Shown piece by piece: positions 14,855 to 64,000 of a DNA stretch of 64,000 bases. The stretch's first letter is position 1. Each line of letters starts with the position of its first letter. A model generated the notes under the pieces. It did no database searches, was not told the origin of the DNA, and was given only the letters and a program-made list of their open reading frames with translations. The stretch is from Rhyzopertha dominica (lineage: Eukaryota > Arthropoda > Insecta > Coleoptera > Bostrichidae): contig QCXZ01000001.1 of NCBI GenBank assembly GCA_025024175.1, forward strand, positions 21,266,001-21,330,000, read 5' to 3'. A program made the translations under genes and the position numbers.

Positions 14855-15090
14855 TAGAGCTCTTCACAAAAGTGACATCACCACAAAACGTGATAGATGT
14901 GCTCTAGCTGAGCATATATTAAATAACAATCATAGGGTAGATTGGGACAACGTTAAAATTTTAGACAAAGAACAGCAAACCAATAAAAGATTAATTCTTG
15001 AAATGTACCATATTAATAGAACAGAAAACACCATCAACAAAAAATCAGTCACAAATCAATTAAGTAACATTTACATATTTACTGTCTCCT
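14855..15090 (+). pseudogene. Penelope-like retroelement, C-terminal (GIY-YIG side) fragment
   Basis: The plus-strand translation gives a CALAEHILNNNHRVDW-like string, then NVKILDKEQQTNKRL, then ILEMYHINRTENTINK and finally QLSNIY. This order is characteristic of the region after the catalytic motifs of the GIY-YIG endonuclease at the end of Penelope-like ORFs. It is open for about 75 codons to a stop near 15090. The reverse-transcriptase part is missing, so this is a 3' remnant. What follows to about 15420 is probably its 3' untranslated region. It matters because Penelope-like elements are the proposed mobilisers of animal hammerhead retrozymes, and one such element lies 0.9 kb downstream. 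Confidence 0.75.
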
Positions 15091-15947
15091 GACCTTCTTC
15101 ATTAAAATTCTATCTATAAATCTAAACAGAAATGGATGTTATATGAAATGTTTTTTGATCGTTTGGACTGTGACTTGACATTATAAGTTTGACAAAAAAA
15201 ATTTGGGTATTGTTTTATTTTTGAAATGTGTCATCTAATATAAATTACAAGGAGAAAATTTACTAAAGGGTTACTAATATATGTATATAGGTGTATGTTA
15301 GAGAACGTGGCATGCATTTGTAAAAGGCTGATTTATAGGAATCTCAGAATTTGTAAGTTAGATGTGTTAAAAAAAAGTCTGTATTAGTCCCATTTGACGT
15401 TTACCACACAACAAGAAAATTCGAATCGAAACAATTGCCACCAATAACAATAATAACACGGAAAAAATTGTATATGCAGCAGTTACAGTGTGACATCATA
15501 TCAAGATACCTATATGATAGTAAAAATCTCAAAAAAAGTTAAAGATTTTTTTCATGTTATTTTTGGATATTACGGAAAATATAAGTTGGAGTTTATATGA
15601 AATATTATGTAGTTATAAGTGACAGATTTTTGTAACATTTAAAATTTCATATTATATTTTTTGAAATTTTGTTTCTGTAACATCACAAGTGCTTTGAACT
15701 TCTTTTGACAGATACTAAAACAAGCACATATGGCAGATGTTTCCAGGCATCAAGCTGATAAAGGTATTTAGACAAATTCTCACATTCATTTGGCATATTG
15801 TAATAATTTTTTTCAAAATTTATAGATTATACAATAAATAATAATAAAAGCTATATTTTAGCAATAAATAATATTTCTGAAATAGCTACCATTAATAGCG
15901 GCAAATGGAAGTAAATAAGAACAAAATAACAATTTACTGATAAATTA

Positions 15948-16240
15948 AAATGCATGTCTATGCTGTGCTGTCTGCNCCTCAACCAACTGCAGATAGATTT
16001 ACTTCGCTGCCATTACAGCTCATCAGTGCAGTACTCTAGTACAGACAGCATGGCATAGAACTGGTTTTGCCTATATACCAAAGCAATGGTATGATGTAAG
16101 TAAGAATTTAGATGACAATGCCATCTGTCAGCATTACACTGACATGATGACAAAGCCACCTAGCTGCCTTGACGGGTACTACTTCCTAAAGGAAGTGACC
16201 TGTAGCCTGACAAATTGGCATGCAACTGTATACTTCAAGT
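15948..16240 (-). mobile_element. Hammerhead retrozyme-like element, copy 1 (5'-inverted)
   Basis: A 293-bp member of the ribozyme family. The left part (to about 16085) carries the hammerhead on the minus strand, in the same order as in copies 2 and 3. The right part (about 16095-16240) is the reverse complement of the matching part of copy 2. It is flanked by TGATAAATTA (15938-15947) and TGATAACTTA (16241-16250), a 10-bp target duplication with one mismatch. If the minus strand is the RNA sense, the inverted part is the RNA's 5' half, as expected from twin-primed reverse transcription. One ambiguous base is at 15976. It lies inside the mariner-type composite and is therefore younger than it. 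Confidence 0.8.
15985..16033 (-). ncRNA. Type I hammerhead ribozyme, copy 1
   Basis: On the minus strand the core CTGATGA is followed by stem II GCTGT-AATG-GCAGC (one G-U pair), then GAA. Next is a stem III GTA-AATC-TAT whose first pair is G-U instead of the usual A-U, then the cleavage-site C. Stem I pairs ACTGCA with TGCAGT. The change at the conserved A15.1 position probably weakens cleavage. Confidence 0.75.
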
Positions 16241-16439
16241 TGATAACTTATGTTGAATATATTTAACAAAGCAAAACGATTCCTATTTGAACAGACAAAA
16301 ATTAAAAAAAATAACTTATTTAACAGCAGTAATAATCGAATTTAATAATAACGAGCAAAAGAGTAATAGTGCTGGAAACTAATACTTAATTAAAAATCAT
16401 AAAAAATATATCACGGTAACAACCACTTTGATAAAAGTT

Positions 16440-21113: not shown

Positions 21114-21212
21114 TAAATTTTTAACACTCACATAAAAAATGTTGTAGACACAAAAACTAGTTTCACAAGGCTCCATTTTGTCGCACGCATCCAACACTTG
21201 CAAAACAAGCCG

Positions 21213-21390
21213 AAGGCGACATGACAAGGAAATCTAGCTGCCAAAATGGAAACTCATACCAAGCCTTTGGTATATAGGCAAAACCAGTTCTATGCCATGC
21301 TGTCTGCACCAGACCTAAATTACACTGACAAGCTATAATAACAGCGAAACAGATCTGTCTGTAGTTGGTTGCGGTGTCACTTCCAGCAAT
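21213..21390 (+). mobile_element. Hammerhead retrozyme-like element, copy 4 (diverged)
   Basis: Opposite in orientation to copies 1-3. It shares the GACATGACAA-GCTGCC block (near 21218-21242), the TTTGGTATATAGGCAAAACC string and CAGTTCTATGCC with the family, then the hammerhead at 21318-21366. After that the terminal part seen in copies 1-3 is lost. No target duplication could be identified. It is older than copies 2 and 3 by sequence decay. Confidence 0.65.
21318..21366 (+). ncRNA. Hammerhead ribozyme, copy 4, degenerate core
   Basis: Stem I AATTACA/TGTAGTT, core CTGACAA (the conserved G8 is changed), stem II GCTAT-AATA-ACAGC, GAAA, stem III ACA-GATC-TGT, cleavage-site C. Relative to copy 2, one stem I pair has changed from G-C to A-T, one from C-G to T-G, and the middle stem III pair from T-A to C-G, all keeping pairing. 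The lost G8 predicts an inactive ribozyme. Confidence 0.65.
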
Positions 21391-21867
21391 GTATTTAACC
21401 GTCTCTCACCTTTGTTGCTAATTTCTGAGGTCCAGGTTTTGGAACATCCTTTTCGTTACCTGTTTCTCTAAGGTTAGGATACAGATCCTTAGAAAGGTTA
21501 GTGTTCTTGTGCAATCGCCGTATCCAACTATTATTAAAATTTGAATTCTTCCTATCTCTATTAAACGCACATTATTTCACAAAACATGGAAAAGTTGTAT
21601 TTTTTACTTTTTCACTAACGCCATTTTGATAAAAGTGTCTCTTCGGCAATTTTCTAATACAACGCCATTGATATTGTACACAATAATGATTCCCAATAAG
21701 AACAGAAAATAGCATGGTGTTATTAAAAAAAACAGAGATGGTTGCCCTGACAAAGCAATAACTGCCTCCTTAAAAAAATCAAGGTCACTAAAATGTGCAA
21801 AAAAATAGCTAAAACACTTTTACCTACAACATTTTTATACGGTGAGTTTAAAAAGTTATTAACATTA

Positions 21868-22153
21868 AAATGCATGTCAATGCTGTGCTGTCTGCACCTC
21901 AACCAACTGCAGATAGATCTATTTCGCTGTCATTACAGCTCATCAGTGCAGTTTAGGTCTAGTGCAGACAGCACGGCATAGAACTGGTTTTGCCGTGGGG
22001 GGGGGCTGCTGTCAAATTGAAGTATACAGTTGCATGCCAATTTGTCAGGCTACTGGTCATTTCCTTCAGGAATTAGTACCAGTTAAGGCAGCTAAGTGGC
22101 TTTGTCATTATGTCAGTGTAATGCTGACAGATGGCATTGCCATCTAAATTCTT
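21868..22153 (-). mobile_element. Hammerhead retrozyme-like element, copy 2 (best preserved)
   Basis: A 286-bp element with perfect 14-bp direct repeats AGTTATTAACATTA at 21854-21867 and 22154-22167. On the minus strand it runs from AAGAATTTAGATGG through a non-coding block with several small hairpins, a run of nine C, then CAAAACCAGTTCTATGCC, the hammerhead, and the end GACATGCATTT. There is no protein-coding capacity and no tRNA-like A/B box that I could recognise. Length, type I hammerhead and TSD agree with described animal retrozymes. Two short plus-strand open stretches crossing this element are not genes. Confidence 0.85.
21905..21953 (-). ncRNA. Type I hammerhead ribozyme, copy 2 (complete core)
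   Basis: Minus strand, 5' to 3': stem I strand AACTGCA; core CTGATGA; stem II GCTGT-AATG-ACAGC; GAA; stem III ATA-GATC-TAT; cleavage-site C; stem I strand TGCAGTT. Every conserved hammerhead position is present: CUGAUGA, GAA, A15.1-U16.1, and an NUH cleavage triplet of A-U-C. Stem I continues outward after an internal loop (A opposite GGTTG) with ACCT/AGGT, and then with arms at 21881-21896 and 21963-21978. Such a long stem I with internal loops suits the tertiary contact needed for fast cleavage, but that contact is inferred. Confidence 0.88.
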
Positions 22154-22269
22154 AGTTATTAACATTATTCATACGAGCCATCCGTATTGTATGATAAAAA
22201 AAGTGTAAAATATTTAGAGGTAACAGTATAGACCAAAATAGCAGGAGAGTATTAATAAACATGGATTCG

Positions 22270-23369: not shown

Positions 23370-23800
23370 AGGTTAAATACATACTTGGAACTAACACCAG
23401 ATACCAGGATGACTTTCAAGCTTCTTCTTGAGAAAGTTACCACCAAGCAACAAAAGCTTTATAGGTTTGCAGATGCATGGCTGGGGACTAACATCAGATA
23501 CCAGAGTGACTTTCAAGCTTCATCCGGAGAAATTTACCACCAAGGAAACAAAGCGCTTATGGTTTATACCAAAGTTGTCATACTTACAGATATATGTACA
23601 TATGCGCCCTTAGTATGGTGCAAAAGGCAACCAAATTAAAAAGACTTGCTTGTCTGGAAATTACGGGGCGATGTTCACCACGACCATGGAAATGTTGCTG
23701 AATCTTGTTATTGTACCATCAGAGGCACTTATTGGCAGCTTATAGGCTGAAAATCGCGGTTTATGAAGACAGCTTCTATTCACACATTTATATCACTGCC
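23370..23800 (+). pseudogene. Jockey-type LINE RT C-terminal remnant with internal tandem duplication
   Basis: The translation shows LTPDTRMTFKLLLEKVTTK (23395-23450), the 'LGV-LD-R-F--H' region after the RT palm. The region recurs one unit later in another frame (TSDTRVTFKLHPEKFTTK; unit starts at 23391 and 23488, period 97 bp). Then come ALMVYTKVV, YAPLVWCKR and KRLACLEITG (about 23640-23675), the pre-RNase H segment of Jockey/R1/I-type LINEs. EMLLNL and YRLKIA follow, up to 23760. Frameshifts separate the pieces. The 97-bp duplication is not a multiple of three and by itself breaks the frame. Confidence 0.75.
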
Positions 23801-38258: not shown

Positions 38259-38549
38259 AAATATTTCTCTTTTTTTTTTCAATTATTGTCTGTATTTAGT
38301 CAGTCCTAGAAATCTTCTCTCTTTCTTTATAGGTATGTTGGCGGCTTTAAAAAACTAATATCAGGTGAATCACTACATGTTATAAAACAAAGTCCTCCAC
38401 CCCGTTTGTCTGTCTGTCGGTTCGCGATAAACTCAAAAACTACTAAACGGATTTTCATGCAGTTTTCACCAACAGTGATTCAGTGAGGAAGGTTTAGGTA
38501 TATAATTTGTCAATATTTTGTGTAAATTGGTTTAAATATAAGGATAATT

Positions 38550-38756
38550 AAAATGCATGTCTATGCTGTGCTGTCTACACCTCAACCAACTGCCGATAGA
38601 TCTATTTCGCTGTCATTACAGCTCATCAGTGAAGTTTAGGTCTAGTGTAGACAGCACGGCATAGAACTGGTTTTGCTTATATACCAAAACTAGGTGGTTT
38701 TGTCATCATGTCAGCGTAATGCTGACAGATGGCATTTGCCATCCTAATTTCTTACT
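38550..38756 (-). mobile_element. Hammerhead retrozyme-like element, copy 3
   Basis: A 207-bp element with perfect 13-bp target duplications TATAAGGATAATT at 38537-38549 and 38757-38769. Its right boundary (minus strand GTAAGAAATTAGGATGGC) corresponds to that of copy 2, and its left boundary (GACATGCATTTT) to those of copies 1 and 2. It lacks the central 80-bp block of copy 2, so it is an internally deleted or shorter variant. The TSD lies in the interspersed repeat at 38375-39290, so this is a dated, nested insertion. Confidence 0.85.
38588..38636 (-). ncRNA. Type I hammerhead ribozyme, copy 3
   Basis: The core CTGATGA, stem II GCTGT-AATG-ACAGC, GAA, stem III ATA-GATC-TAT and cleavage-site C are identical to copy 2. 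Stem I is weakened: AACTTCA against GGCAGTT leaves mismatches at the first and third pairs. The outer stem I arms (TGCTGTCTACAC with GTGTAGACAGCA) remain complementary, including a pair that changed on both sides relative to copy 2 (G-C to A-T). Confidence 0.8.
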
Positions 38757-39290
38757 TATAAGGATAATTGTTGGAAGTGTCGGAAAAAGTCAAGCCGCCT
38801 GAGAGCTTTCATCGAAAACGCTGCCTAATCCCTTTGAGATATAGGAAAACACTGCACGGTCACGTACTATGCGGTAATTGGAAAGCTTTTTATACGGATG
38901 CAGTATTAATCCTTATCAACTTAAATGCGTTAGTCACCTTAAGCATTTCATGCATATTATTATAATCTTTGGACACCATATAATTTAAATGCATATCTTA
39001 AGAGTTATCGCAAAAAATTAACGCTCGCGAATATAAATTCGAGTGCGTTTCTCACACCAATGACGGGACTCGCTTGATGCGATAACCCCGGCGCCGCGCT
39101 ATTCTGTCGCCCACTGTTTCTATATAAGCCGAGCGATAACCCCACGTACTCCTATAATCAACAGGCTTTTGAAGCGAATGGAGGTGACTACTGGAAGGTA
39201 TTTGTCGTAGGTATAATATAATATGCTCTACTACCCGTGCGAAGCCAGGGTGGGTCGCTAGCAGAGCATAAAAGATTACGTTACAAACGT

Positions 39291-46841: not shown

Positions 46842-48160
46842 CAGTGATGGGCGCGTAGAATACGTCATGTAGATTACGCTATTGTCTACGCGTAAACTAT
46901 GTAATATTCTACTTTGAAATTCTACTGTAGAAAATAGCATTGTGTAGATAATCAGAAATTTAGATATATTTAGTTATTTAATGGTGTCTTTTACCACTAC
47001 TGCTCTACACGTGGTAAATGTCTAAACAGCAATAACATATTTGGCCCTAAGGTCATACCTTAGGGCCAGAAGACCAGACAAGCGTGCTGTGAAAAGCACT
47101 TTGAAGCCCTCAGTGGGTCAAATGGACTCCTTAATGACTGTAAACTGTGATTTTGTCCTTTCTTCTTTGTAAACAGAAATTTCATAAGCTACTCATGTTC
47201 TTTTATCGTAAATTCTTTGAAAGCAGTTCTTGTTGCTGAACTAGACACATTAATCTAAAGAAGCAACTAACTATGACCAACTAGTTGTGTTGTAGTAAAA
47301 AAAATTCTTTGAAACAAAATCAACTTGTAACTGCGGTACCGAATTTGATAGTGTGTTAGGAAAACAACTTAATATAGTTGTGGAAGGAAAGATGTCGTAA
47401 ACATATGTTTTGTCTCTTGTGTTTCAAAGAAGTAAAAAACAGTTTGTGTACACTGACTACTTACTGAAACATGATATGTAAGTTTGTAATATAATATTTA
47501 CATTTACACCTATGTATTGTCTCAGACATATTAAAATCATAAGTTAAGAAAATAAAAATGTTTAGTAAACCGTGCAGTTATTTATAAAAAATGTGGTAGT
47601 TATGTTGCAACTTTCAGATTTTGTCATTAATCTGTCTAAAATCAAAACTTCAAATTCCAAATAACATTATACATAAATGGATTGTATTTTGCATGCTTTA
47701 GTTGGCTCCTTGTTATAAACCGCATTTGCAGTAAGGTTCAACTACATGTTGTTATACTTATGTACCATTGTAAATGTTTATAGAAGCCCTGACGAAGATT
47801 TGAAATAAAAATCGAATGTTTGGCAAAGAAAGAAGAGTAAACACTATTTTAACATAAGAAGTCGACTTCTACCTATTTGCGAAGACCTTAATATAATAAA
47901 AAGCAACGGCTGTGTCCATTTAACGTATTAGATATAAAAAAATATAAAATTTTAAGAAATTTGACGCATGGAGAAGCCAACAAAACAGGGAAATTAGAAT
48001 CAAACTAATTTCGTTTTGTTTTAGTATGTACTTAATACATTTTAGCCATAATATACTCGTCTTATATTTTCTACTTAAAATCTACGCCAAAGTGCTTTAT
48101 CTACATTTTCTACGCATGTAACGTAGAAAATTATAATTTACGCGTAAGCGCCCATCACTG
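46842..48160. mobile_element. Non-autonomous hAT element with perfect 8-bp TSD
   Basis: The termini CAGTGATGGGCGC (left) and, reversed, CAGTGATGGGCGC (right) are bordered by the perfect target duplication CAAATAGA at 46834-46841 and 48161-48168. Subterminal regions on both sides carry GTAGA/TCTAC and ACGCGTA units. Length 1319 bp. I recognise no transposase. The interior includes a degenerate hammerhead-like motif near 47790. Confidence 0.92.
47786..47823 (+). ncRNA. Degenerate hammerhead-like motif inside the hAT element
   Basis: GCC, CTGACGA (matches CUGANGA), an A, hairpin GATTT-GAAATAA-AAATC, then GAATGTTTGGC. The GAAAC part has lost two bases and stem I is only GCC/GGC. It resembles a Penelope-type minimal hammerhead relic. 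Confidence 0.3.
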
Positions 48161-54230: not shown

Positions 54231-54290
54231 CATTACCCTGACGAGCTGTAAGAAAAGCGAAACAGATATATCTGTAGTATTGGACTATGG
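54231..54290 (+). ncRNA. Diverged hammerhead ribozyme, copy 5
   Basis: CTGACGA (54238-54244), a weak stem II GCT/AGC within GCTGTAAGAAAAGC, GAA, a 5-bp stem III ACAGA-TATA-TCTGT and a cleavage-site A. The core is intact and the sequence aligns with copy 4, but I cannot find a convincing stem I. It is probably an old member of the same element family; element boundaries are not visible. Confidence 0.5.
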
Positions 54291-62513: not shown

Positions 62514-64000
62514 ATACACACTTTCAACAGAGATATATATCGGAGCATTGTTAATAACAATTTTGTTCTGATTATCATCAGTTCATTAAATATACTTGGG
62601 GCTGATGTTTTTCCCTACATATTTGACGGTGGGCGGTTTGCCTCTTCTCAAGGCACACCCATCGCTCTTAATAGTATCTTTGGTTACGTCATTATGGGTA
62701 AAGTTTCTAATGATTATTCACTTCCATCTTCTAGTTATTGTGGGGTTGCCACAGAACCGTATTCTCTCGAAACCATTATGAAGCAATTCTGGGAAGTGGA
62801 GGAAGTGCTCTCTGAACCACCTGTTGATCCTTGTGATCTTATTTGTGAGAAAATGTATCAATGCTTGCATCAACGTGATGATACGGGCCGTTATGTTGTT
62901 CCTCTTATGTTTAAGGATGATGCTTCCCTCCTGGGTGAGTCGTTATCAATCGCCAGCTCTTCTTTAAACTCTCTAGAACGACGTTTTAAGCGTGACCCTG
63001 ACCTCTTCCAGTCCTATAATACATTTTTGTCGGAATATGAATCTTTGGGACACATGAAGTCTATTTCTTCTGGTACTTTCAGTCCTAGCACTAATTATAT
63101 TCCACATCACGCGGTTTTTAAAACTGCTGGCAACAAAACTAAAATTCGGGTAGTTTTTAATGCCTCTTCAAAAACGCTATCCAATCAATCTCTTAATGAC
63201 TTGTTGTATGCTGGTCCTAAGCTACAACCGTACCTCGCTTCTATTCTCTGTAGCTTTAGAATTCATCCGATAGTTTTTGTGTGCGATATAACTAAAATGT
63301 ATCGTCAGATTCTAGTGTTACCAGAACACAGAAAATTTCAGCATATCCTCTGGAGACCCTCTCCAAATGAAACTGTCAAAGAATTTGAACTCTTAACCGT
63401 AACTTATGGAGTGTCTTCATCACCCTATTTAGCTATCCGCACCTTGCAGCAATTAGTGAAAGATGAAGGTTTGCACTTTCCACAAGCTTCCAAACTAATT
63501 GCGAATTGTACGTATATTGACGACATCTTGGCGGGTTCATCTTCTGTGGAAGACGCTTTAAAATTACAGGCTGATCTAATTAGGCTATTAGAGCTAGGAC
63601 GTTTCGAACTGGCAAAATGGGCCAGTAATGACACTAGCTTGCTTGACCATCTACCTCCAGATAAGTGTGATATGCAGCCCTTCTTTTCCCCTGAAGTTGA
63701 GATTTCCTTGAAATTACTCGGCGTCTATTGGGATCCTAACAGTGACTCATTTTCTTACCATACTGCACCTTTCGAGTGCAATCATACTAAAAGGTCAGTG
63801 TTATCTTGTATTGCCCGATTATACGATCCCCTTGGCTGGATTTCTCCAGTTATTTTTCTTGCTAAATCTTTAATGCAAGAGCTTTGTAAGCGTTGTCTTG
63901 AATGGGATTCTGTGCTCCCTCTGGATATTCAAAAGGTATGGATTTCTTTTATCACGAGCTTACCTTTATTGAGACATGTTAAGATACCTCGTTATATATT
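62514..64000 (+). CDS. pol: BEL/Pao retrotransposon pol, open to window edge
   Basis: A single uninterrupted frame of about 495 codons, following a stop at 62511 and still open at the right edge. It starts with the end of the retropepsin region (LNILGADVFPYIFDGGR, about 62583-62633). The typical BEL/Pao linker and RT follow: VFNASSKTLSNQSLNDLLY (about 63150-63210), DITKMYRQI (first catalytic Asp, about 63283-63310), YGVSSSPYLA, and YIDDILAG with both catalytic Asp (63513-63536). It ends with LLGVYWD and ARLYDPLGWISPV (about 63810-63850), the Pao-type region after the RT. No initiator Met is expected, since pol is normally translated as part of a gag-pol polyprotein. RNase H and integrase should lie beyond 64000. 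All motifs are intact and in one frame, unlike everything else here, so this is the youngest element in the window. No gag or 5' LTR was recognised upstream, so the copy may be 5' truncated. Confidence 0.93.
   Translation, partial: MHTFNRDIYRSIVNNNFVLIIISSLNILGADVFPYIFDGGRFASSQGTPIALNSIFGYVIMGKVSNDYSLPSSSYCGVATEPYSLETIMKQFWEVEEVLSEPPVDPCDLICEKMYQCLHQRDDTGRYVVPLMFKDDASLLGESLSIASSSLNSLERRFKRDPDLFQSYNTFLSEYESLGHMKSISSGTFSPSTNYIPHHAVFKTAGNKTKIRVVFNASSKTLSNQSLNDLLYAGPKLQPYLASILCSFRIHPIVFVCDITKMYRQILVLPEHRKFQHILWRPSPNETVKEFELLTVTYGVSSSPYLAIRTLQQLVKDEGLHFPQASKLIANCTYIDDILAGSSSVEDALKLQADLIRLLELGRFELAKWASNDTSLLDHLPPDKCDMQPFFSPEVEISLKLLGVYWDPNSDSFSYHTAPFECNHTKRSVLSCIARLYDPLGWISPVIFLAKSLMQELCKRCLEWDSVLPLDIQKVWISFITSLPLLRHVKIPRYI

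Follow-up and report, generated by a model that had tools for sequence, protein, structure and literature searches.

Inverted, two-ended insertions in a hammerhead retrozyme family of Rhyzopertha dominica and their likeness to Penelope-like elements

A two-arm element with a hammerhead ribozyme

Within the 64-kb stretch of R. dominica DNA that we analyzed (the window), a 286-bp element had been presented in the original prediction as a short, non-coding member of a retrozyme-like family, carrying a complete type I hammerhead ribozyme (HHR) on its minus strand and enclosed by perfect 14-bp target site duplications (TSDs). Both TSDs proved exact, and no open reading frame (ORF) of at least 110 aa in the window overlapped the element. 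Mapping in unit coordinates (u), for which a genuine unit from locus L011 served as the reference, resolved the element into two antisense cDNA arms placed head to head, with the unit's linkers a and b absent or partial. The arms start at P1, an internal site directly 3' of the HHR hairpin, and at P2, an internal site directly 3' of the T hairpins (T being the half of the unit other than the HHR half, H). Their mapped pieces overlap by three bases at 21991-21993.

21854..21867, no strand: left TSD, AGTTATTAACATTA, exact 14-bp repeat
21868..22153: 286-bp element, non-coding, HHR on the minus strand
21868..21993, plus strand: P1 arm, antisense cDNA that begins at P1 and extends through the HHR module (u1-126)
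21892..21962, minus strand: type I HHR, Hammerhead_HH9 match under the gathering score
21905..21953, minus strand: core of the HHR, with the cut predicted to follow C17 (plus position 21912)
21994..22153, minus strand: P2 arm, antisense cDNA that begins at P2 and reaches u317, in the opposite direction
22154..22167, no strand: right TSD, again AGTTATTAACATTA, exact 14-bp repeat

All stems, the core and the C17 site of the hammerhead are present on the minus strand as had been described: CTGATGA, stem II GCTGT/ACAGC, GAA, stem III ATA/TAT and stem I AACTGCA/TGCAGTT. The expected Rfam hit appeared only in part, since a search of the whole window at gathering thresholds gave no match, whereas permissive filters applied to 601 bases recovered Hammerhead_HH9 at 21962-21892 with 28.5 bits (E 4.9e-5; gathering score 52). 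The motif is a canonical type I HHR of the kind found in animal non-LTR retrozymes, though it scores under the Rfam gathering score. The hairpin at 21880-21985 had a folding z of -6.75 relative to shuffles. Across 74 family copies (62 distinct), we counted 31 double-changed cells in the HHR, against 9.6 in shuffled and at most 8 in slid controls; 28 of the 31 came from two column pairs, 25-96 and 54-61 (the latter in stem II), and therefore represent few covariation events. On two of the five measures, shuffles equalled the real values more often, with the number of double-changed pairs reached in 24/500 and the pair types in 55/500. The CUGANGA...GAAA core was undamaged in 66 of the 74 copies, a set that was picked by similarity to the window copy and so appears more uniform than the whole family. 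Self-cleavage of the retrozyme RNA would take place at the predicted C17 site.

BLASTN inside the window detected two further good copies and two relics.

15946..16243, plus strand: third copy, a single P1 arm through the HHR, linker a and T
21254..21377, minus strand: old copy with damaged ends and a mutated HHR core
38550..38756, plus strand: second two-arm copy, with the 13-bp flanking repeat TATAAGGATAATT at 38537-38549 and 38757-38769
54238..54278, plus strand: relic of an old HHR, a 41-bp match at 83%

The third copy has an imperfect flanking repeat, read as TGATAAATT/TGATAACTT by eye and as 6 bp by script. Beside the old copy at 21254-21377, the region 21130-21265 contains an inverted CCATTTTG...CAAAATGG and is perhaps the T part of a different retrozyme family; it gave a single weak 34-bp match to the fetched loci. 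The window also holds two Penelope relics on the plus strand. One, at 14898-15086, is an endonuclease piece with 42% identity to the Penelope-like element (PLE) protein of this genome, and the other, at 47502-47826, has 76% identity over 47580-47826 to a GIY-YIG locus (L097). A hammerhead-like CTGACGA...GAA motif lies in the latter relic at 47789, and an Rfam search of window positions 47600-48000 with E up to 1 returned no match. Elsewhere, a 495-aa ORF at 62514-63998 (plus strand) has, judged by eye, the appearance of a BEL/Pao retrotransposon, and a tandem repeat of 97-bp period and 1.8 copies occupies 23390-23565.

A dispersed family with a 351-nt unit

We searched the genome from which the window derives (479 Mb, 138 contigs) with three queries. 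The 286-bp element gave 63 matches among the best 40 of 1758 first-look candidates, the HHR half 44 matches among the best 40 of 1388, and the other half 41 matches among the best 40 of 559; the first-look candidates are unconfirmed copies. The loci read comprised 39 regions from the first search (all matches outside the window), 28 of 30 loci from the second, 20 of 26 new places from the third, and the window itself. As the top-scoring matches of three queries, they form a non-random sample. A total of 97 elements were mapped across these 88 sources (87 loci and the window), so that the proposed multicopy family does exist, dispersed in this genome. Eighty-eight elements were whole and at least 100 bp long; the remaining nine were three one-ended pieces below 100 bp and six copies cut by a locus edge.

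H and T were found in either relative orientation, joined by recurring linkers. Linker a, usually 30-31 bp long, separates H from the T that follows it; linker b, usually 47 bp, separates T from the following H. H, T and the two linkers together define a unit of 351-353 nt, the same period that was seen in the direct tandems of L032, L011 and L042. The linkers and the 351-nt period rule out 286 bp as the repeat unit, and the original view of the 286-bp stretch as the element's own unit has to be replaced: it is a composite of two arms derived from an RNA unit of ~351 nt. The two-arm structure would account for 286-bp copies resembling a distinct element despite the larger RNA unit.

In being non-coding, multicopy and built on a unit within the ~170-400-nt range, the family agrees with animal non-LTR retrozymes. 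In the accessible parts of PMC7229834, those of Acropora, Mytilus and Ambystoma have a type I HHR, no coding capacity, many copies, no LTRs, TSDs of >4 bp and a unit of 170-400 nt; the assignment to a short, non-coding, TSD-flanked family of this kind thus stands. The same parts of that paper describe animal retrozymes as direct tandem repeats and contain no mention of inverted two-start insertions. In the loci of our family that were read, by contrast, tandems lie inside arms and reach at most 2.6 turns; two or more HHRs in tandem occurred in 11 of 173 arms, and the majority of these copies were inverted instead. Plant LTR retrozymes, in the available portions of PMC7229834 and PMC7761336, share the HHR and a life cycle through circular RNA (probable in our case), but they differ in having a type III HHR, LTRs and a 4-bp TSD. 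Neither the LTRs nor the 4-bp TSD characterizes the R. dominica family.

Two fixed start sites on a continuous template

In a typical copy, arms run inward from the left and right flanks, both antisense to the HHR strand. P1 and P2 are ~156 nt apart in the unit, with the HHR hairpin between them. Among the 88 whole elements, 56 had one P1 end and one P2 end, 14 had only a P1 end, 7 only a P2 end, and 11 were aberrant or truncated; homotypic elements (P1/P1 or P2/P2) numbered 0/88. Four of the 11 (L026, L043, L048 and L072) could be seen by eye to have both ends, together with a deletion or jump inside the element. A single copy, truncated by a locus edge, at first looked like P2/P2; a further 250 bases of sequence resolved it as P1/P2, flanked by a 12-bp repeat. 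P1/P2 copies made up 29/41 whole elements of at least 100 bp in the first set, 16/29 in the second, 9/14 in the third and 2/4 in the window. Under a model in which ends are drawn independently at the rates of the one-ended copies (2:1), and with copies treated as independent, the chance of zero homotypic cases in 57 is ~1e-20.

Arms began at nearly constant positions: 144 of the 156 primed ends of all whole elements fell at P1 or P2, and in 29 copies with a TSD of at least 10 bp, P1 lay at u349-1 in 24 and P2 at u152-158 in 25. We also considered whether P1 and P2 are single-stranded sites. This held for both in one unit; across eight, it was largely true of P2 but not of P1.

Flanking repeats accompanied the two-ended form. 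Full flanks were available for 54 two-ended copies; their best flank match was at least 8 bp in 38, in keeping with the TSDs of >4 bp of animal non-LTR retrozymes, and at least 10 bp in 30, so the window element is not alone in bearing TSDs; some of these matches take in element letters. When flanks were shuffled among same-orientation copies, matches of at least 8 bp and at least 10 bp arose in 3.6% and 0.3%. One-ended copies had a flanking repeat of at least 8 bp in at most 4/23 (L062, L080, L070 and L050), consisting partly of element letters, and the flank matches of one-ended L034 and L053 are element letters. The target ends of the insertions are AT-rich.

An inverted joint, flanking repeats of 10-15 bp and slight microhomology would also be produced by LINE target-primed insertion with ordinary twin priming. 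In LINE-1, however, twin priming accounts for a minority of insertions and combines a single fixed end, the RNA 3' end, with a second priming point whose position varies. In the R. dominica family the two starts are both internal and both fixed, and we regard a LINE origin as unlikely, even though the inverted joint within a single TSD-flanked insertion is shared.

Arm length in 52 two-arm copies ranged from 24 to 917 nt, the longest corresponding to several turns of the unit, and 18 of 104 arms exceeded one turn. The position of the H-T joint varied among most copies, while L001 to L004 look alike, and microhomology at the joints was weak (p 0.015). Because tandem units do occur within arms, we considered that tandem arrays might have been inserted and then rearranged through inversion, deletion and recombination. 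Such a history seems very improbable given that the joints differ among most copies yet both ends are fixed and TSD-flanked.

Rare variants provided evidence on the template. Segments within one element had them in common in 106/435 comparisons, against 3055/65769 between elements. The rate for opposite arms (78/322) was about equal to that for successive turns (28/113), and opposite arms shared rare variants five times as often as arms from different elements. Divergence was smaller within than between elements in 42 of 49. Since opposite arms share rare variants, both arms were probably copied from one RNA. The predicted HHR cut was crossed by 119 of 173 arms, with a single arm stopping within 3 nt of it; the P2 site was passed by 46 of 81 P1 arms and the P1 site by 34 of 69 P2 arms. 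Because arms pass the cut and both start sites, the template must have been continuous there, whether circular or multimeric. The circular form, which we hold to be probable, is the simpler reading and agrees with known retrozymes; most of the data would be explained equally well by a linear multimer.

The ends of the two arms may not be placed purely independently of each other. In the second and third sets, which are less biased, both arms ended within 20 nt in 8 of 24 copies (3.6 expected, p 0.015), an excess that independence of the arms leaves unexplained; the corresponding count in the first set was 2/29. A preferred arm stop before the opposite start, suggested by pooled ends, was dismissed by eye as a product of the first query's shape.

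Relation to Penelope-like elements

The genome's own PLEs were sampled through their endonuclease. A GIY-YIG search gave 144 matches among the best 150 of 2080 candidates, many with identical score. Among the 144 matches listed, neighbor pairs within 6 kb were head to head (minus then plus) in 20 cases, direct in one and tail to tail in none. Six PLE loci were read. Five had been picked for inverted endonuclease pairs, and L091 for the length of its ORF; the one-tail feature played no part in the choice. The L091 ORF encodes 864 aa, with matches to RVT_1 (1e-8) and GIY-YIG (6e-8) when pieces were scanned separately against Pfam and neither a reverse transcriptase (RT) nor a GIY-YIG match when the entire protein was scanned. 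All six copies, that of L091 among them, are inverted and bear a tail of ~37-41 nt at a single end, and five have flanking repeats of 12-16 bp by script, some of which probably include element letters. The six loci (L091-L096) represent a young PLE family in which the insertions read are inverted and have one tailed and one untailed end. An Rfam search of five of the loci with E up to 0.5 returned no match.

The link to Penelope made in the original prediction gains structural support from the inverted insertion form common to the retrozymes and these PLEs. As described in PMC11167929 and the accessible parts of PMC3846280, PLEs have inverted insertions, AT-rich targets, TSDs and two sites at which RT begins, and one end of the insertion carries a tail. 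In particular, the Anolis PLE protein (PAc) is reported to cut both strands and to extend them from two start sites inside the RNA, the interval between these sites is the tail, and its targets are AT-rich with an ATT motif (PMC11167929). Our retrozymes likewise have inverted arms from two fixed internal starts in 56/88, none homotypic. They differ from PLEs in encoding no protein (the 351-nt unit holds no ORF with RT and GIY-YIG domains, such ORFs being in separate PLE loci) and in the distance between the starts, ~156 nt compared to 37-41 nt. With the HHR hairpin folded out, the P1-P2 spacing may be equivalent to the PLE tail. A kinship of sequence between P1/P2 and the sampled PLE starts was also sought, by BLAST and by eye, and was set aside when no convincing likeness was seen.

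The fixed ends could alternatively reflect a template jump between sense and antisense transcripts, with P2 as the 5' end of the antisense RNA; on reasoning alone, this predicts fixed P1 and P2 ends just as well. Seven whole copies carry the P2 end alone, and the inverted form is also that of PLEs, whose starts are reported to be internal (PMC11167929), making a template jump improbable as the source.

Four of the six PLE copies are near-perfect palindromes whose arms stop at one point, the outcome that a linear RNA with a single 5' end would produce. In the less biased retrozyme sets, arm ends lay >20 nt apart in 16 of 24 copies, a difference that favors a circular retrozyme template, on the basis of six PLE loci. 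Palindromic arms are also what snap-back self-priming would generate, in which the cDNA folds and copies its own strand into inverted arms. This was suggested for Penelope in the accessible text of PMC3846280, where the Adineta element has an inverted pLTR and an optional tail. The retrozyme copies with arm ends at most 20 nt apart (8/24) would suit such a process as well, while the more widely spaced majority would not. Copy-back would moreover repeat the first arm's end as P1/P1 or P2/P2, the combinations absent from all 88 whole elements, and we consider self-priming quite improbable.

We therefore favor, as the likely explanation, a non-autonomous animal non-LTR retrozyme whose RNA, probably circular, was integrated by Penelope machinery with priming on both strands of the target. 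A transcript with tandem type I HHRs would cut itself into ~351-nt units, which, as in known retrozymes, would be closed into circles. A Penelope-type RT/endonuclease, probably a dimer, would cut the target strands ~10-15 bp apart, and both strand ends would be extended on one RNA molecule, one from P1 and the other from P2. The antisense arms would stop at varied points, at times past one turn, and would be joined head to head with microhomology weakly favored. The identity of the enzyme as a PLE product is suggested by the shared insertion form. Standing against this explanation are the 21/88 whole elements with a single primed end and the 11/88 that are aberrant or truncated. Also weighing against it are the non-random sampling of retrozyme and PLE loci, the small number of one-ended copies with flanking repeats, the weak microhomology, the excess of arms that end close together, and the differences from PLEs in the sequence and spacing of the start sites. 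We are evenly divided on the narrower proposal that Penelope primes both strands on a single hammerhead-made circle, always at P1 plus P2, with the HHR hairpin replacing the tail. If it is true, each two-ended insertion would preserve the trace of two polymerases at work on a single circle.

The available parts of PMC7229834 already treat PLEs as a strong candidate to mobilize animal retrozymes, and those of PMC7761336 state that animal retrozyme repeats lack a motif indicating a partner. Two-start inverted insertion of retrozymes was not found in the literature searched, which covered few subscription papers; provisionally, the insertion mode appears new, and it adds a structural signature to the existing candidacy. 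For the mobilizer of animal retrozymes, a two-start, one-molecule signature common to PLEs of the same genome is a concrete and testable link. The signature also bears on PLE insertion itself, for which self-priming had been proposed in the accessible text of PMC3846280, and the P1/P2 terminus pattern offers a simple genomic test in other species.
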